From Telopea speciosissima (taxonomy: Eukaryota; Streptophyta; Magnoliopsida; Proteales; Proteaceae): a DNA stretch of 64,000 bases. Positions within the stretch are counted from its first letter, which is position 1. Each line of letters opens with the position of its first letter. A program made the translations under genes and the position numbers. Below the pieces are notes generated by a model. That model did not search any database. It had not been told where the DNA came from and saw only the letters and a program-made list of their open reading frames with translations. Below are positions 2,031-37,400 of the stretch, in pieces. The DNA is taken from positions 50,955,043 through 51,019,042 of the forward strand of contig NC_057926.1 in assembly GCF_018873765.1 (NCBI RefSeq), read 5' to 3'.

Positions 2031-3054
2031 TCACTTCCATGTGTGGCCCTTGGGATTCTTTGACTTTCCACCACAAGCAATAACAATAGGAGATACAAGG
2101 CTTGGAACAAAACTTCTTACTTGAAACACTACTGGAATTGCTCCAGACAGTGGAACACGCATAACTTGCTTATTCTCGATCTAAACAATAAACAAAAAGA
2201 TGATCACCACTCTTTGCTGAATTACGTATGAAGGGATGAGAAGACCAAACCCATATCTTGTACAAGAGCATGTGATTGCTCAGCATACCCACGAGATTGA
2301 ATCCCTCATATACATTACTAGGCTATTCCACAGATTCCAAATGAATACGATCACATCGGTACAACTCGATACCCTTGGACTTGTTAATCTCTATGTACCA
2401 TATAAGAATGACAGGTGATCCATAAGAGAACTGATCAGGTTCACAATGATACAAGGCCAGGTAACCCCCCCTTGATAGGAATAAGGTACCATTCAAGACG
2501 CTGTGGCAACGGATCATCTACTATAGACGGCGGAGGGAAGTCTATAGTGCGAAACTTCTCATCTTGGAGATCGAACACAAGGATGATTGTCTCCCATGAA
2601 TCATGAGTATTGGTGGACTTCTTCTTCTTCTTGTTGATAATGCAATAGAGTGAGTGACCCATTCATGATGAATACCATCTGGTCCATACGTGAGTTACTT
2701 TGTAAACAGTAAGGGATCTCTATCTCTCTCCATGAACTTTCACCTAATGTAATAATCCGACACAAATTCCCTTGCTTTCCACATATATTTTTCTTCTTTA
2801 TTTCCTCTCTCCAACAAACGTAACTTATTTAGTCGTACGTTGTCTTCGTAAAGAATTATACGGGGTGCTCGATCCTTCGATCTTTTAAGCTGCAATTCAA
2901 GGAATAATGGGTCTTCTGCTATCAAACTGAACCAGTTTTTACAAACGCTCTTGAATTGCATAAGAGACTCTATGGGGAGCCTTGACAATATTTCGGAGAT
3001 AATCTCTGAAGGTAGATGATGATAATGCTTAACTTGTTGCTCTTCCATATCCAT
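2031..3054 (-). pseudogene. F-box (FBA-type) gene, decayed by frameshifts and a deletion
   Basis: The 5' part (3054-2740) encodes a clear F-box within the first 60 residues: LPSEIISEILSRLP, then SLMQFKSVCKNWFSLI. The frame then stops just after SDYYIR. Downstream, pieces of an F-box-associated domain continue in other frames: SSWREIEIP with DQMVFIMNG, then LYCIINKKKKK with a LVFDLQDEKFRTIDFP block, then LNGTLFLSRGGYLALYHC. A plausible C-terminus ending in GGKSKNPKGHTWK stops at 2031-2033. One frame change coincides with a duplicated ACTC near 2645-2655, and another lies near 2490-2500. The segment expected between the F-box and SSWREI is much shorter than in intact relatives. F-box/FBA proteins are substrate receptors of SCF ubiquitin ligases; this copy should make at most a truncated F-box peptide. 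It belongs to a different subfamily from the F-box copies at 20 and 25 kb. Confidence 0.75.
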
Positions 3055-4705
3055 TTGGGTAGGTGGTTCCTTAGAAAATAAAGTAAATCAATATATAAAC
3101 TAAACATATGCACAAACACTAATAACAATCAAATATATATATAAAATGGAAGAAAAGCAAACAACAGGGAATCTGCCGATTGGATCTGATAAGAGAGTGA
3201 CTATCTCCATGAAAGAAGAATTAGGGTTTAAGACTATACCGAAAATTCCTATTTTACCCTCTTCGATACTTCTTATTGTGCACTGCGTCGTAAGACCAAC
3301 AACTATAGCCGCCAGGAGAAAAACTAGAATGGAGGATAATAGATAGAATAATATCCAATAGGGTTGGAAGAAGCATATATAACTGAAAGAAAGGAACACA
3401 CCTTCACTTTGTCTTTCAATTTCTGTAACTTTGATAGCTAAAAAGCGTTCTTCGAGGAGTCAGACTGAGATTGAATCGGAATCGATGACTGTCGAAATCA
3501 AACACCTACGAATAGAACAAGAGGAGCGGCTCCTTTGAGATAAGATTATAAAGATATATTATTAGGTCTTTTAATGAAGAAGAAATGAGAGAGATGAAAA
3601 GAGAAGAAAGAACTTGGAATATATATATGGTTTCCTAAAAAGAGGAAGGGTGTGATAAAGAGGGTAGATCATTTACCGCAAAGAATAAGGGAAAGAGACA
3701 AGGATAGAAATTGAAAATAAGTAAAACATGGAGAGCTGAGTTAGAGAGAGAGATATGGAACCAATAAGAAAGAAGTTGCAATATATATGGTTTCCTAATA
3801 AGAGGGCCGGAGATATGACAACTAATTTCTAAGAACAAATCTTCATCCATTTTAAAGTTCACAAAAACATGGTACCGCTTAAATGTCATGCAGCTCGATC
3901 AGCTAGTTAAGGTTTTGAACTTAGAACATGGGCTTCTGAAAGATGTTTTCTGCTGTTATGGTTTCTCGATCTATCTCCACTGCCGAGAGAATTAACAGAT
4001 CAGATCAGGAAATGGAGAGGATTAAAATCCAATTGAATTCGGGGTCGTCTCCGTTCGTTGGAAGGATCGAACAGGTTATTTATGTATTAATCAGAAACCA
4101 AATTCTCACTAAAGGTATTTTGGTAAGTACATTCCTTAAAAACAAACCTCTAACATCCCAGAATAATGGACTGGATTTAAATGTTACAAAGTTTGGAACG
4201 TAGAGATGCATTTGAAAATAGTGAAAATTCACAGGTGCATTTATACTTAAAAGGCAGTTTGAGGGAGGTATTTGAAAAAAAAAAAAACCCTTGACACCCT
4301 CAGGGTATCAAATAATTTCTAACTGGATAAGACATCGCTGTTTGACAGTGTAGTCCTTGCACCAACGTGGGTCAATGAGTGTGTGCGTAAGGGCATCAAT
4401 ACGAATGAGATTTTTTATTTTAGGAAGATCATAATGGTAATTTTACTTGCTCATGTATCTAGGTATAGGAACAACGCAATCAATTAGGGTTCTTTTTCCC
4501 TTTATAATTTTACATTTTTTGCTCTCTTAAAATAATATATATTTTTTTCGAAGGAGGGAAAAACCTTTTTGTTTAATATATGACAACGACAGTGCTTTTG
4601 CTTATCAGCCCTTTGATCTTTGTAATTCGAATGTCACGAGTGATAGTGTATGGGTTTATGCTCATACCACTACGCATATTGATTTAAGACGTCTATGGAC
4701 TACGG
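3055..4705. other. intergenic, no gene recognised
   Basis: AT-rich sequence with GA-rich stretches around 3560-3760. A short open frame at 3943-4203 has no recognisable similarity. No RNA gene or complete transposon was identified. Confidence 0.5.
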
Positions 4706-16177: not shown

Positions 16178-16483
16178 TTAAACTTGAGAACTTGAAACCT
16201 TCTTTGACACATTGCTGCGTGTCCATAGGAAATTGCCATTACATAGAGCCTTAAAAGCAACTTTGCGAGCCGCTTCAGTATCTCCTGCATCTAACAACTT
16301 CCCTTCCGTAATAATAGAGGGGCCTCTAAAATCTGTTATATATCCGCCACAAGCTTTTTTTACTGGATTGTAAAAAAGTGCAAAAACACACACTACATAG
16401 ATTGGCGGATCCATGAATGCCAACTCTTGTGATTGGGAGTGAGAGTGAATAACTTCAGTAATTTGATCAAACTCAAAACCTCT
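16178..16483 (-). pseudogene. RNase H-like exon of F-box-RNase H family, copy A (internally deleted, F-box exon absent)
   Basis: The minus-strand frame begins right after a CAG acceptor at the same sequence context (GATGATGCAG) as copies B and C. It reads RGFEFDQITEVI, then DPPIYVVCVFALFYNP, GGYITDFRG and TEGKLLDAGD, matching copy C. It then jumps to an EAARKVAFKALCNGNF segment that aligns with the C-terminal part of copies B and C. About 70-80 residues that should hold the central helix and the middle of the fold are missing. No F-box exon is found between this acceptor and copy B, where an hAT-type MITE (16707-16977) and unrelated sequence lie instead. It is a remnant rather than a working gene. 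Confidence 0.7.
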
Positions 16484-16706
16484 CTGCATCATCAATTTAT
16501 AATAAAACCATTAGTGATCAGAGACTAGATTATGGACTTTCTTATTGTCCAAATGTTAAATACAGGGAGAGAGTAACAGCTAAAATATGATCAACATACA
16601 TAGAATTCATATACAATATTAGAAATTAGAAGATCTCTGTAGAAGGCTACCCTTGCCAATTAAATGATTAAATCAATAGATGAAGATCAATAAGTATGTT
16701 TTAAGC

Positions 16707-16985: not shown

Positions 16986-18578
16986 CAACTCGGGAGAGAG
17001 AGTGAGAGAAGTGGGGGGGGGACCTTTGAGATAAGATTATATATAGAAGTCAATAGGACATCTTTTTAAAGAAGAATTTGGAATACGGGCAAAACAAGAC
17101 TAGGGTTTAAAAACCCTAGTCTAACCCTAAGTCCTCTTAGCTCAAGCCAAGCTCAACCTGGCCTTAGGTCAGGCTGAGATATCTCAGCCCATGCCCAATC
17201 CTGCCCGGCTCAGCCCAGCCCAACCCTGCATTGGTCTTCAACATCTGCCCGGATATCACTAATAATCGTTGGGTTAGTCTTGGTCTTGTTCCTGAATATA
17301 TGGAAATTCTCTCCTTCCATATATGATCGATAGTAGCACAGAAAGCAATCATGACAATACCACCAATCAAGTCTCCCTTAAATTACTTAGCAATCCACCT
17401 AGCCTCCAAGATGACATTACTCCCCACCCTTCTAGAAGGAGAACAAAGCTTCAATATACTTCTCCAAATCTGTTTAGTAAATGGGCGAAGCAATAATCCC
17501 TTTTGTATTGTCTTCAATTGCTTGTACTTGCATCTCAAATTTGGGCAAAAACTTAAGCGAAACATTGTACTTTTATTTTTTCATAGTGCATTGGTGCAAT
17601 ATTTGGCCCTGTGATTTTTTCCTTCTACGTTGGAGGGTTTTCCATGTAAAATGTTTGGTGTGTATTGTGTGATATCTTTTTGTTTCTCTTATTTGCTTGG
17701 GTTAAAGTTGCTTGACAACTTTACATTGGATTATTGGTATTTCTCAATTCACAATAGACAAGTGGGTTTGATAATCCCTACAATGTCATCCAAATTTTCA
17801 GTATTTTATAATAAATATGTATGAAATATTAAAATCAAACTGGTTAGCGTCCAGAAAAGAGCCTATTAAGTCAATCCGATAAAGTAATCTATCTGAACTA
17901 ATTCGAGTTCACTTTGGTTTACTACTATACCAGCCCAAAATTGGTTCAGCTCCACTGAACCCACACTGGAGAGGGAGAGGAAGATCCAGAGGAGGAAGAA
18001 CTACCGAAAAGGGAGATGGTGAAATGCAGGGATTGCCGGCAGAGAGCTGGAGGTGGATCGATCGGCAGTGATGGCAAGAGGAATGGGGGGGGGGGGGAGC
18101 TGGGGATCTTTCCAATATAGGTGGCAGCTGGGGGCAATCCCTAACACCCCGCACTGGAGAGGATCCAAATCCATGTTTAGAAACAAAATAAAGAAAAAGG
18201 CAAAAACATAATTATACAAAATTCATAATGATTTAATGATTGATTTATGTGACTATCTCTCTGCTCAAGTTCAAAATTTCAAAGTGGATGAAGCAACTTC
18301 GACGCATCGTGAATCATGGATTAAGTATATGATATTGATGATGATAGCTGAAAAAACTGAGAAATACACATTAATAGAAGAGAAAAACACACACTCACGG
18401 AGGAGGAAATATTATCGATGATCAGGAGAAGTCTTTTACTCTTCACAAGTTTAGTTGTACTCAGGGAGCATTAGGTCTGGAATCTATAGAGAATTAGTAG
18501 AAACTAGGCAGAGATTAATGAATTGTAAGGAAAATTAAATAATGTAAAATTGTAGAAGCCAATAAGGTCTGCAAAAAC
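16986..18578. other. intergenic, no gene recognised
   Basis: The stretch contains a GCCCAGCCCAACCC-type low-complexity patch near 17190-17230, a poly-G run at about 18086-18099 and several short open frames without recognisable products. The segment closest to copy B (about 18440-18578) resembles the 3' flanks of copies A and C. Confidence 0.5.
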
Positions 18579-20832
18579 TTAAGAACTTGACACTATCTTT
18601 AACACATTGCGGTGTGTCCATAAGAAATTGCCCTTTCTCGAACCAATAAAAGCAACACAGCGAACCGCTTCAGTTGTTGTTCTTCGAGCTCTTTGATCAT
18701 AGAATGTTGGAGCCCAACTAAATTCAGAAAGATCATGTGAGATTTGAGCCCAACTAAATTCAGAAAGAAGATCAGTAATCTTTGTAGCCTTTGAAAAATC
18801 TTTCTTTCTTCTCCACTACTATTAATAGCATCAACTATCTCTTTTGCATTAGAAACCAAAGCGTTGGATACCATGCCCACGAGCTAATTGCAACCCACAA
18901 AGAATGGCTTTTACATCTGCTTCAATGCTATCTCCTGCATCTAATAACTTCCCTTCCGTAACAATAGATAACATTGCTTCTCTAAGATCTGTTATACATG
19001 CCGCATAAGCATTTTGGACTGGATTGTAAAAAAGTGCAGAAACAAACACTGTATAGATTGGTGGGTCGGCCATGTATGCCAACTGCTGTGATTGGGAGTG
19101 TTCAGTAACTTCACTCTGCATCATCAATTTATAATACGATTAGTATGCATAAAATCCTTATACAAAATTAGATTTATTAATTTCACTCATTCTAGTTAGC
19201 AATCTAATAAGGGTTTTGTAGATAAATTAAAGAGGAAGGGATTTCAAACATAACTCTTAAGAGGGCTTTCATTGTATGTAAATAATACATCAAACTAGTA
19301 TAATCTCTAGCCAAAATTTCCCTTGTTAAGCATCACCTAGACTTGTTGTTGGGTGCCTTGGTCACCTTGGTTTATGCTTTAGACCACCTGGTCCATAGGC
19401 TATTAACAAAATCTCCAAATTAAGGAAATATTAAACCATATCCTTGCCCTCCTTAGTTATAGCTTTGAGAGATCCTACCAAACTCAAGCAAGAGTTGAAA
19501 TTAAAGCCATGTTTGGATGTCAAGAAAAGAAAAAATTCAAAAAATTTTGATTTTGAAGAGAGTGATAGACACATAAATCAATCATTTCATCAACACAGAT
19601 CTTCTACAGTGCGCTGCCCTATCTTGCTTGTGCTGCACAGACACAAGGCGGCGTGCATTGACTGCCTTACCCCGCTCAGGCAAGGTGCTCGGGCAGGGGT
19701 AAGGCGATCAATGCGCACCGCCTTGTCTCTGCGCATCACGGCAGGACCGGCAGCCCATGCTATAAAAGATCTGGATCCTCATTCCATAGCCTAACATATG
19801 ATCAATAAGTATGTTTTAGGAACAATACATACATGTAGTACATGTCTAAGTGGCCGCAAGCTCTCCTTATAGAAACCGAAGAATGTTTTTCCCTCTTTAT
19901 CAGAAATGAATCCACTAAAACTTGCTGTTTGGAGATGGTAATAGAACAATCCGTAAAAATAAAACGATCCTTCGTTCCAAGTCTCAATAAGCACCTTAAT
20001 ATTCCCCTTATCATCCTCTTTTATTATGTCTCTAGGAATATAGTACCCATGACGGCTATGGTACTACCCCAAATTCTTCATTCTCCACGTTGAACGCCAA
20101 GATTTTCCGTTCTCTATCGATCAGCCAGTGAAGAGTTCCATTCACGAAAGCTGGACATTGATCATCATCGACATTGTAGGTGGAATTTCCAACTTGTTTC
20201 CAAGCCCAAGGAATAGAATAAGAAGAAGAAGAATCCTTTCTCATCCCCAAAGTGAAAACCCTACATTCTGTTGGGGCATTGGGATCGATTCTTAAGAAAG
20301 GACGAATCAAATGAACTACTTTATACTCATCGGTAGACTCAATGAATCCAAAACCAAAGGAACCACCATACTCAGAGAAGTGAAGTGGTTGCAATGTTAT
20401 GATTTCTTGTGTAGTTGGATTACAAACATGGACTTCAGTAGCTTTAAAGGAAGTGAAACATACCAGATCGAAACGGGTAGGCAACACGAGATTGCAATAA
20501 TACTTGTTGGAATTGAACTCGAATTTGTTTAAAATCTTTACTTCTGTGTCGAATGTAGATAGGAAAAAATTAGGTAGTGGAAGATGATCTTCTTCTCTCT
20601 TTCTAAATAGACTTGATATGGTGAGGAGAAGAGGTGGTTTAGACTTGAATTGCAAGTGAATGAAATGAGGATCATTTGGTATGACATGAAGCCATTGTTT
20701 ACTTAGACACTGGAACCTGAGGAGGGACTTCACAGGGAGCGATGAGAGCACTTTGAAAAAAATATCATCTGGTACCACTATTGATGATGGATCATCATCA
20801 TCACCACCACCACCACCACTGGTATTAATCAT
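18579..20832 (-). pseudogene. F-box/FBA - RNase H-like gene, copy B (broken)
   Basis: The F-box exon starts at 20832 (MINTSGGGGG) and has a good F-box (VVPDDIFFKVLSSLP, SLLRFQCLSKQWL) and FBA blocks (LPTRFDLVCF, VHVCNPTTQEIITL, CPAFVNGTLHWLIDR). It stops after EEFGVVP at 20056. Compared with copy C, about 95 residues are deleted here; homology resumes in another frame with IPRDIIKEDD, IKVLIETWNEG and SLRPLRHVLH. A donor (CAT|GTATGT) follows at 19833. The second exon begins after GATGATGCAG at 19115: SEVTEHSQSQQLAYM, SALFYNPVQN, TEGKLLDAGDSIEADVKAIL. It is frameshifted near 18850-18860 and again near 18770, with an internal duplication of a GAATTTAGTTGGGCTC unit. Exon order, donor and acceptor phase (both phase 0) and the 717-nt intron mirror copy C, so the two-exon architecture predates the duplication. 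Confidence 0.8.
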
Positions 20833-22755: not shown

Positions 22756-25162
22756 TCATCCTTCTATGAACCAGTTAGGTGGTTTTCTAAAAAATAATAA
22801 TTTCTTCGTACTGTTTAAAACCTTAACAGCAATTTGGCAAGCCACTTGAGTTGACGTTCCTGGATCATGGAATATTTGAGCCCAACTAAATTCAAAAAGA
22901 AGATCAATAATCATTGTAATAATCTTTTCTAGCCTTGGAAAAGTTTTCCTGTCTTTGGTATTAATAATGGCTTGAAGTAGCTCCTTTGCATTAGAAACCA
23001 AACCAATGCACTGGATTCCTTGCCCACGAGCTAATTGCAATCCACAGAGAATGGCTTTTGCTTCTGCTTCAATGCTACCCCCTGCATCTAGTAATTTCCC
23101 TTCAATGGCAAAAAACTGACCTTTAAGATTTGTTATATAACCTCCATAACCACTTCTGTCTGGATTGCAAAAAAGTGCAAAAACACGGATTACATAGATT
23201 GGCGGGTTCTTGTCTGCCAACTGCTGCAATTGGGAGGGAATAACTCCAGTAATTTGATCAAACTTGAAACCTCTCTGCATCAATTTATAATAAAGCATTA
23301 GTGATCAGATTATATTTGGGACTGCTTAATTAGGCTGTACGTGTTTGGTATGTATTCTTGGAATGCATTCTAAATCGATTGTTGCATTCCCAGATGATAA
23401 AAACAGCTATTTTTATCATCTGAGAATGCGAAATATGCGTACTGAACACTGCTTTAGTATTCAAATCTTAAAATTTGGTCAACATAAAATCCATAAATAG
23501 TATAAAATGATATCCAAAATTAATTTTACTAATCATAGTGTATTAATAATATATATAAAGAGGAGAGTAGGAAGTAGATGAAGTAGAAAAGGAGCTAGAG
23601 ATGTTGAGAAACACTCAAACTAATTATTCACTAACCTGAATCTCAAACCATTCTTGTACAAAATGGCTAGGGAAAATTCCTTTTTACAGGGTTCCAATAG
23701 AGTTTCTAGCTACAAGACATCTCTACATGTTTCCAAAATATCAATTGTCATCTGACCTAACAGTCTAGATTAAACCAAAGATGAAGTTTTTTTTCACAAC
23801 AGTCATACCATATAAAACACAGCCTTACTAATCAAATTGCGAAAAAAAATTAAAGAAGATTTCAACTAAGAATGAATCCAAAGACCTATACATAATATAT
23901 CAAAATAAGTAGAGGTAGGTATACAATACCTGTAGAACATGTCTTAGTGAGCGCAAGCTTATAGTATAGAAACTGAATAATGAACATCTCCCATCCTCAC
24001 ATATAAATTCACTGCAACTTGAGGTTTGGAGCTGGTAATAAAACAAGCTACCATACTTGGTCTGAATAAGCACCCTAATATTCCTGTCGTCAACCGTTAT
24101 GTCTCTAGGAGTAAGACCATTTAACCCACCATATTTAGAGTATTGAGGAGACACGAAATTCAGATCAATACTATACTCTTTTACCCACTCAAAATTAAAA
24201 TTAACAGGATTCTTCTCATTGTGAAAGTGAAAGTAGTAGCCTTTCAGCATCCATATGTCCATTCTCTCAAGTGCTTCAACACATGAAAGGCAGAGTAACC
24301 CTCTAAGTTCCACCAACCTGAAACTATGGCCGAAACTAATAAAACCAATAGTTGTAATATAAGAGGGATATGGGACGAATCTAAATTCTTCACTTTCCAA
24401 GTTAAACGCCAGGATTGTATGTTCGACATTGGATTGGTAATATCTGTCGATCAACCAATAAAGAACTCCATCAACGAAAGCCGGAAATTGATTTACTACT
24501 CTGCCTACTTTGCAGGAGAAAAAATTTCCTATTTTTCTCCAATCCCAAGGAGAAGCATAAGAAGAAGGAGAGTCTTTTGTCATCCCTAAAGTGAAAACCC
24601 TAAATAAACGATTATTCAAATGAACTATTTTATACTCGTCGGTAGACTTAACATACCCAAATCCGTAGGAATTACCAAAACCACAAGAAGGGTAAATTGG
24701 TGGCAATGTAATGAGTTCTCGTGTAGTTGGATTACAAACATGAACTCCTTTATTGGAATTGAAACACACCAGATCAAAACGGGTAGGCAATATAGAGTAG
24801 CACGAATTTGCTGGAGTATTCCTTGATTTTATAGGGAATTCGCTTAAAACCCTCATTTCCATGTCGAAGGAGGATAGGAGAAGTCTTCGTTTCTTAGGTG
24901 ATGGATCTGATACAGAAAAGAGAAGAGGTGTTTTGTAATTGGAATGCTGATAGAGTAAGTGAATGAAATAAGGATTATTGGATATGAGATCAAGCCATCG
25001 TTTACTTAGGCACATGAACCTGATGAGGGACTTAAGGGGGAGTCTTGAGAATACCATCAACAATACATCTTCAGGTACCATCACCACTATTGATGATGAT
25101 GGATCTTCATCACCATTACTACTACGCCCTAGACGACGACGACCTCCTCTGGTATTAATCAT
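22756..25162 (-). CDS. F-box/FBA protein with C-terminal RNase H-like domain, copy C (2 exons, 583 aa predicted)
   Basis: Exon 1 is 25162-23930 (411 codons) and exon 2 is 23274-22756 (172 codons plus stop), with a 655-nt intron. The donor CAG|GTATTG and acceptor GATGCAG|AGAGG are both phase 0, so the joined frame is open. Residues about 27-70 are an F-box (VPEDVLLMVFSRLP, SLIRFMCLSKRWLDLI). Residues 110-410 form an F-box-associated domain (LPTRFDLVCF, VHVCNPTTRELITLPP, YGFGYVKSTDEYKIVHL, FPAFVDGVLYWLIDR, ILAFNLESEEFRFVPYPSY). Residues about 436-570 resemble the plant reverse-transcriptase-type RNase H fold (GGYITNLKGQF, SIEAEAKAILCGLQLARG, GLVSNAKELLQAI). F-box/FBA proteins select substrates for SCF ubiquitin ligases; what the RNase H fold adds is unknown. 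Without splicing, exon 1 reads nine codons past the donor and stops at 23900, giving a 420-residue conventional F-box protein, so both products are possible. The gene model is inferred, with no transcript evidence. Confidence 0.72.
23339..23450. mobile_element. small foldback MITE in the intron of copy C
   Basis: The left end GTGTTTGGTATGTATTC and the right end, in reverse complement GCAGTGTTCAGTACGCATA, pair imperfectly. The core also folds: GATGATAAAAACAG opposite TTTTTATCATC. A second copy lies at about 47456-47560, so this is a dispersed family. Confidence 0.7.
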
Positions 25163-34400: not shown

Positions 34401-37400
34401 GAGCATTCCCCCATTCTTTGTCTGGTTAGAAGATCTAGTGTCCTGAACAAGAAACGAACATGGGTGTTACATTCTGATGCAGTGATGCAATTCAAGGATA
34501 TTACTGTTCAAGTGACATGGTTCATGTGGTACTGTTCAAGTGAACAGTGGTGTGGGCCCCATTGGAGATATTCGAGGAAGGAACCAGGCCCAAACTAAGT
34601 TCAGTTGGTTCAGGCCAGACCCTCCAGTCCTAAATATTCTAGGCCAAGTTTCATTTAACTCCAGTCAAGATGGGTCAAGAATATTCAATGCATGTGTGCT
34701 GAAAAAAAACGGATCAATTAATTCTAGTCCAAGACTTAGTCAAAATGATAAAGAGTTATTAATGCATTTGTGCTGAAAAAGAGGAGTCCCTAAAGACATT
34801 TTCTGATAGTGTGGTCAAACTAGGAAAGTGAGACTTTGAGGGAGACACCAATACGATGTGGAACGAGATGATTACTTGTATTAAGATAGTTTCCAAAGAT
34901 GTACTAGGGGAAGCGAAGGGTAGTCGTCAAGGCCCTAGGGAGATTTGGTGGTGGAACAAAGGGGTCCAAGCAGCCATTAAGACCAAGAAAGTTTGTTTTA
35001 AGATTTGGTAAAGGGCTAAAGAACTAGAGGATAAAAAGAGATACTATGATGCCAGAAACGAAGCGAGGAAGATTGTGGGGACGGCTAGGGCGAAGAAATA
35101 TGAGGATCTCTATATCAACCTAAACACAAAAGAAGGGGAAAAAATTATAAGATAGCTAAGATGAGAGAAAGATAGAGTAGTGATCAAGTGAGGTGTTTCA
35201 AGGGTGAAGATGAAATTGTGTTGGTAAGGGACGAGGACATTGTGAAGAATGGGATAAATATATTTGCGACCTACTAAATGGAGATAGGTCGAGTAGACAT
35301 GACCTAGATGATTACATTATTCAGCAAGACACCACACACCATAAATATGTATGAAAGGTCAGTGTGGCAAAAGTTAAAGAAGCCTTAAAAAAGTTGAAAG
35401 TAGGCAAGACACCAGGCCCAGATGAGATTCCAATAGAAATGTGGGAAATCCTAGGAGCTTGTGGGGTATATTGGTTAACCAATCTGTTTAACAGGATTAT
35501 GAACACAAAGAAGATGCCAGATGAATGGAGGAGAATACAAAAAATAAAGGTGATATCCAAAGTTGCAATAACTATAGAAGCATAAAACTAATGAGTCGTT
35601 AGGTACGCCCTTTCATAAAACTAATGATTCACACTATGAAACTTTGAGAGAAGGTTATTGAAGCCTGTTTGAGAAGAGAGACTCATATCTCGGTGAACCA
35701 ATTTGGCTTTATGTCGGGTAGATCCATGACAGAAGCTATCCACTTATTAAGGGAACTCATGGAAAGATATAGAGATAGCAAGAAGGATCTCCATATGGTT
35801 TTTATTGACTTGGAAAAAGCTTATGACCGAGTCTCTAGAGATTTAATCTGGCATGTTCTAGTGAAGAGAGGGGTGTCGAGTAAATATGTGGATGTAATTA
35901 AAGATATGTATGAGGGCGTGGTGACTAGTGTGAGATCTGTGGGAGGTCATGGTATGGAATTCCTAATTATGATTGGGTTACATCACTATTTGCGCTTATC
36001 ATGGACGACTTAACCAAGAGCATTCAAGACGAGGTGCTGTGGTGTATGCTCTTCATTGATGATATCGTTTTGGTGGATGAGACAAAAGCAGGGATTAATG
36101 CTAAGTCAGAGTTATGAAGATCAACCTTGGAAACAAGAGGCTTTAAGATTAGCAGAACGAAGATGGAGTATATTACGTGTAATTTTAGTTATACTGGATA
36201 CTGATATGGTGCGAATTGGGGAAAGAGAGATACCGCAAAGTGACTATTTTAGATATTTGGGGTCAATCATAAATAAAGAAGGTAAAATAGAGGATGGTAT
36301 TACAAATAAAATTAAAGTGGGATGGATGAAGTGGAGAGGTATGTTCGGAGTGTTGTGTGACTGCCGTATTCGTGTAAAGCTTAAAGGAAAGTTCTATAGG
36401 ACTGTTGTACGACCGACTATGATGTATGGGGCATTATGTTGGGTAATTAAGAAGTCAAATATTGAGAAGCTATGTGTAACAGAGATGAGGATGGTAAGAG
36501 ATTTTAATCCTCTCCAATTCCCTAAAATGTGAAGTGCGGCAGTTCGGGGTGGAGATGTCAACACTTGACAGCTCAGACATCCAACGGTCCAAGCTCATTG
36601 ACTTCAGTTTTTTTTTTTTCTTTCTTCTTGAGCTTGGCACCAGTGGATGTCTGAGCTGCCAGGTATCGGCATCTCCACCCCAAACTGCCGCACTGTACCC
36701 TTTTAGGGAATTGGAGAGGATTATTTTCCGATGTTAAGATGGATGTGTGAAAAAACTAGGAAGGATAAAGTAAGGAATGAGTGTATTAGAGCTGGCTTGG
36801 GAGTTGTCTCGATCAATGACAAGCTTCGACAGAGCCGTTTGAGGTGGTATGGTCATGTTCAACGGGGGCCTAGGGACGCTCCAATATGGAAGAGTGATAT
36901 GATCCCGATTGAAGGAGTTAAAAGAACTAGGGGTAGGCCTAAAATGACCATAGGAGAAGTTGTGAGGAAGAACATGCATAGTCTAGTCTTGTACCAAGTA
37001 TGACCTTGGATAGAGCCTATTGGAGGGCAAGGATCCATGTAGCATACCCCATTTAGCTGAGATTCTCCTGACTTATTGGGTTGTGCCTCGTTCCTCGTAC
37101 TTCCATCTTTCATTTGTCATTTTCCATTTTTGCATTTCTCATCTCATTCCTCGTCTCTTATTCCCCCCTCCCTTTTTTTTTTGCTTAGACCTCACTTTCC
37201 CCTACTTTGTTTTGTTTGGATCCATGTAGCCGACCCCATTAAGTTGGGATAAGGCTGTGTTTTTTGTTGTTGTTGTTGTGCTGAAAAGAAAAGCATTAAC
37301 TATTTAGTTGTAACTAGTATCTAAAGAAGTTAAGTCTTATTTCAGTCAATAGGTCAGTTTCCTTGTTAGTTGTGAAAGACCTTGAAAATGTAAAGTTCAT

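Follow-up and report, generated by a model that had tools for sequence, protein, structure and literature searches.

Recurrent pairing of an F-box/FBA exon with an RNase H-like exon in the genome of Telopea speciosissima

The two-exon gene and its neighbouring copies

F-box genes are parts of the protein-disposal machinery and rank among the largest and fastest-turning plant gene families; their products bring substrates to SCF (SKP1-cullin-F-box) ligases. In a 64-kb stretch of contig C11 (hereafter the window) of the 823-Mb Telopea speciosissima genome, a gene on the minus strand, copy A, has a first exon predicted to encode an F-box and F-box associated (FBA) domain and a second exon whose predicted product has an RVT_3-type RNase H fold. 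Across the genome, sequence comparison found that the two exons recur together and follow nearly the same tree.

A sequence-only reading of this DNA had proposed that splicing joins the two frames of copy A, and the gene model held when it was re-derived. Exon 1 ends at 23930 (CTACAG/GTATTG, the slash marking the splice boundary), the acceptor AG lies at 23276-23275 (ATGCAG/AGAGGT), and all coordinates are correct. The stop-free join, phase 0 on both sides, into 411 + 172 = 583 codons was reproduced, as was the stop TGA at 23900, which is met nine codons past the donor if the intron is read through unspliced. Pfam finds the F-box, FBA_3 and RVT_3 domains that the model requires, each above its cut-off (Table 1). 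By eye, a branch-point-like CACTAAT lies ~27 nt upstream of the AG. A palindromic stretch resembling a miniature inverted-repeat transposable element, GATGATAAAAA..TTTTTATCATC, is also visible by eye in the intron at ~23330-23460, and may account for part of its length.

Copy B had been cited as having the same exon order, splice positions and phase. These are indeed the same, but the donor is CAT/GT, exon 1 carries a stop and a deletion in its FBA part, and exon 2 is frameshifted; because copy B is broken, taken alone it gives weaker support than had been assigned to it. For copy C, a truncated RNase H exon, no upstream F-box match was found within the window.

Table 1. Positions in the window of copies A, B and C and of the domains matched in copy A
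Feature	Position	Strand	Remarks
Copy A exon 1 coding sequence, F-box + FBA	23930..25162	-	411 codons, ATG to CAG/
F-box domain PF00646	24965..25075	-	Pfam E 4.6e-10, 39.4 bits (cut-off 20.5); converted from residues 78-114 of frame P0001
F-box associated domain FBA_3 PF08268	24242..24478	-	Pfam E 5.5e-5, 23.6 bits (cut-off 20.7); converted from residues 277-355 of P0001
Copy A intron	23275..23929	-	GT-AG, phase 0, 655 nt
Copy A exon 2 coding sequence including stop TGA, RNase H-like domain	22756..23274	-	172 codons
RVT_3 match PF13456, RNase H fold	22828..23169	-	Pfam E 5.5e-11, 42.9 bits (cut-off 21.6); converted from residues 46-159 of frame P0002
Copy B exon 1, broken	19833..20832	-	Ends placed by register with copy A
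Copy B exon 2, frameshifted RNase H exon	18559..19115	-	3' limit approximate
Copy C, truncated RNase H exon	16178..16510	-	

Recurrence and shared inheritance of the two exons

The genome was searched separately with each exon, and the DNA surrounding RNase H matches was read in 18 stretches of 9.5 kb, together with the three window copies. Merged by hand, 29 of the 40 genome matches make up 22 RNase H places; the other 11, all weak (E 0.001-0.01, 27-36% identity), were excluded as ordinary RVT_3 copies. Among the matches listed, an F-box exon, whole or fragmentary, lies upstream on the same strand at 19 of the 22 places, at distances from <100 nt to ~5 kb. Since the search scores the best candidates only, both counts are lower bounds (at least 22 places and at least 19 pairings). 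At C11_53.073 the stretch read does not reach the F-box, and the pairing was taken from the genome search with the F-box exon. Window copy C, C9_28.004 and C9_12.954 had no F-box match in the DNA covered. Pairing at 19 of 22 places is more than chance, and the reading of the two exons as chance neighbours was set aside by comparison with the other copies.

Seventeen junctions were examined, leaving out the paired places C9_45.711 and C11_53.073 (a short piece). By patterns that require consensus sites, donor, acceptor and phase are kept at 14 of them, where the bases before GT are CAG at 11 junctions, AAG at two and CAT at window copy B, and exon 2 follows GCAG. The remaining three are C10_19.114, with TAG/GT and GCAG/, C9_45.635, with no donor by pattern, and C11_52.850, with no acceptor by pattern. 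Intron length across the junctions varies from 81 to 924 nt. Among the 28 pairs formed by the eight introns no longer than 156 nt, 23 show an identity of 0.45-0.62 over the interior and of 0.70-0.93 over the final 32 columns of the alignment, where a branch-point-like CTAAT lies. Close relatives make up the remaining five pairs (0.79-0.99 interior, 0.81-1.00 end). An in-frame ATG stands immediately 5' of the CAG at 11 of the 14 junctions and is absent from three, all of one clade and one of them with an open exon 2.

When each exon was used to build a tree of 12 copies, the two trees had eight of nine splits in common, the sole differing split being the placement of the broken window copy B, and the exon-2 data accept the exon-1 topology (approximately unbiased (AU) test, p 0.25). 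Both exons are open in three of the 12 modelled copies, which are mutually divergent (window copy A, C11_53.067 and C11_56.001). Seven copies retain an uninterrupted exon 2 of full length, and an eighth has a shortened one that is still open.

No stop lies inside the F-box match of seven sister genes, located at C5:58.68-58.87 Mb and C1:66.25 Mb (44-48% identity). Searching downstream of the first five with a protein profile detected no RNase H, and a DNA profile found an RNase H relic in six of the seven (L035, L036, L038, L039, L052 and L053; 22.9-49.9 bits) and none in L037. In controls, the top score among 200 shuffled versions of the first five sister stretches was 5.0 bits, four of four distant F-box stretches gave no match, and the rest of the window reached at most 2.4 bits. 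The relics start ~110-190 nt past the same donor, and the six genes keep a CAG/GT donor and a TGTAG acceptor followed, by eye and in the RNase H frame, by codons like NWISYE-stop. These six genes may possess a very short exon 2, of ~6 codons, inside a truncated RNase H relic; a 4-base difference just 5' of the donor shifts the exon-1 frame of L036, so phase is kept in five. GCAAAA-type repeats follow the relic in some of the six.

A decayed relic together with the donor in six of seven sister genes suggests that the pairing is old. The simplest reading would be a common ancestor in which the RNase H exon was already spliced, with a later truncation in the sister group; the fusion probably predates the split from this group, whose second exon would since have been cut to a few codons. 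The paired places, the junctions kept while intron length varies, the congruent trees, the three divergent open copies and the sister relics strongly support the earlier proposal that the domain pairing is an inherited gene structure.

State of the RNase H exon and explanations for its retention

The assignment of exon 2 to an RNase H domain is borne out by Pfam and by a structural model. RVT_3 (PF13456) matches all seven open exon-2 copies at E 0.01 or better, and the model most resembles RNase HI of archaea and bacteria, supporting an RNase HI fold. The exon-2 sequence profile, compared with solved structures, returned no RNase H and three chance-like matches (E 0.0036, 0.1 and 0.12).

The catalytic acids of RNase H are named as a D-E-D-D set in the part of PMC5348765 that was available. 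In an alignment of the seven open copies and eight RVT_3 sequences from this genome, three of the four acids were missing in every open copy: the first position has no acid in any of them, the second is E in six and D in one, the third is E in one copy and N, K or T in the others, and the fourth is C or V. All four acids are present in seven of the eight comparison sequences, and L047 has H at the fourth position. Judged from these residues, the RNase H part probably no longer cuts RNA.

Selection was estimated as omega with our own codon-likelihood script, and a second estimate was taken from the MG2K model of IQ-TREE. Exon 1 has an omega of 0.58 in the three intact copies (p 7e-6; MG2K, 0.636), and exon 2 an omega of 0.71 in the seven open copies (p 0.013). 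Only one of eight exon-2 segments departs from 1, the beta2-beta3 hairpin, at 0.11 (p 3e-7). Selection is clear on exon 1 and weak on exon 2, where it is limited to this hairpin. In neutral simulations without indels, covering four lineages, exon 2 survived as an open frame in 2-7% of the runs for each lineage, and 0 of 3000 runs kept it open in all three intact ones; exon 1 was open along one lineage in 0 of 300 runs.

The best explanation, which we consider reasonably probable, is a two-exon plant gene family in which an F-box/FBA exon is joined to an RNase H exon that has probably lost catalysis and may serve as a binding surface. Splicing of the copy A intron would yield a 583-residue protein whose F-box part is predicted to bind SKP1 and whose FBA part would read the substrate, with the RNase H part adding a binding face beside FBA, at the substrate-reading end. 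The least certain step is the last: a role of the RNase H part as a binding surface for protein or nucleic acid is proposed only tentatively. The sequence-only reading had suggested that the domain may recognise nucleic acids or products of reverse transcription. A more specific version, in which the domain was domesticated as a cutting-dead, integrated-decoy-like reader on an SCF receptor, is unlikely; it would capture retroelement proteins, RNA-DNA hybrids or pathogen factors aimed at them, bound proteins would pass to ubiquitination, and the fast change around a fixed beta-hairpin core would reflect an arms race. The stepwise origin of new substrate-reading domains is seldom observed, and here the spread, catalytic loss and vestigial loss of a transposon-type domain are traceable in one genome, in a product open to direct testing for transcripts and binding partners.

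Several results weigh against the two-exon family as we explain it. The copy A fusion is predicted from genomic sequence, and the 14 kept junctions are fitting copies and not a blind count. Nine of the 12 modelled copies, window copy B among them, are broken by stops or frameshifts. In the three intact copies only, exon 2 has an omega of 0.68 (p 0.056); its MG2K estimate is 0.886, and outside the beta2-beta3 hairpin its pN/pS lies between 0.89, from independent pairs, and 1.04, from the intact copies. Tested on the exon-1 data, the exon-2 topology is weakly rejected (AU p 0.048). Between the same pairs of intact copies, synonymous divergence is 0.27-0.34 in exon 2 versus 0.44-0.65 in exon 1, a difference that simple co-duplication does not predict and for which gene conversion is one possible cause. 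Finally, the sister genes have no stops in the F-box match yet show no RNase H protein, so the domain is dispensable there.

The main rival, a real but distinctly less probable alternative, accepts the ancestral fusion and takes the RNase H exon to be a decaying passenger that individual copies are losing one after another, as happened in the sister genes. The working product would then be an F-box protein that terminates within a few codons of the donor or carries a tail of little function. Such decay agrees with an exon 2 that is near neutral apart from one hairpin, with the relics and possible short second exons of the sister genes, with the nine broken copies, and with the early stop in the unspliced copy A intron; it is harder to reconcile with a full-length open exon 2 in seven of 12 copies, given the neutral rate per lineage, or with the constrained hairpin and the conserved splice sites. 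If decay extended to the whole family, copy A included, the array would consist of dead or dying pseudogenes and its open frames would be recent chance survivors. The broken modelled copies and two further broken copies within the window invite this reading, and the selection on exon 1 (measured on three copies chosen as intact, which somewhat biases the comparison against it) and the loss of exon 1 in every neutral run speak for its being quite improbable. Highly improbable is an arrangement of two adjacent separate genes, with a retroelement-derived RNase H gene starting at its own ATG-CAG beside the F-box gene. The frequent in-frame ATG and the three places without an F-box match would fit it, but eight copies, with introns of 81-156 nt, offer little space for a 3' end and a promoter, the ATG is absent from one clade that includes an open exon 2, in six sister genes the donor persists and the relic holds a possible acceptor, and most RNase H places are paired. 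A separate RNase H gene was set aside when tested against the other copies.

Neighbouring features and known systems

Elsewhere in the window, Pfam matches RNA_pol_Rpb1_2 at 1338-1745, within plus-strand frames at 841-1745. These frames resemble a subunit of the plastid RNA polymerase, which we take to be rpoC1, and are probably plastid DNA inserted in the nucleus. A different F-box frame at 2740-3087 (minus strand; Pfam E 2.1e-10) is 31% like part of the copy A F-box exon. Broken-looking frames of non-long-terminal-repeat (non-LTR) type at 35355-37003 (plus strand), with RVT_1 at 35648-36013 (E 2.7e-11), have the opposite orientation to copy A.

In the literature, no protein combining an F-box with RNase H/RVT_3 was found by title or opening abstract, most subscription papers and architecture databases being outside reach, and the available part of PMC4340835 holds nothing bearing on this pairing; a counterpart may well have been annotated without being discussed.

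The family resembles plant F-box/FBA proteins, which are SCF substrate receptors, in having F-box and FBA in one large exon and in forming local clusters with many broken copies, and differs from them in its additional C-terminal RNase H-like exon. That exon in turn resembles the archaea-like RNase H of plant L1 retroelements, with RVT_3 in all seven open copies and a model near archaeal and bacterial RNase HI; such an RNase H was acquired by some plant non-LTR elements, according to the accessible part of PMC5348765. Unlike the L1 domain, exon 2 is joined to an F-box exon and lacks most of the D-E-D-D set. An L1 element may have been its source; the F-box exon sits where L1 ORF2 would have its reverse transcriptase, 81-156 nt away in eight copies, although no systematic reverse transcriptase search was made around the copies. 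RVT_3 is also among the domains fused to nucleotide-binding leucine-rich repeat receptors in seven species, as given in the part of PMC4759884 that was available. There, as here, a host receptor carries an RVT_3 add-on; in those cases the host is an immune receptor, whereas here it is an F-box protein, in a multiplied family.
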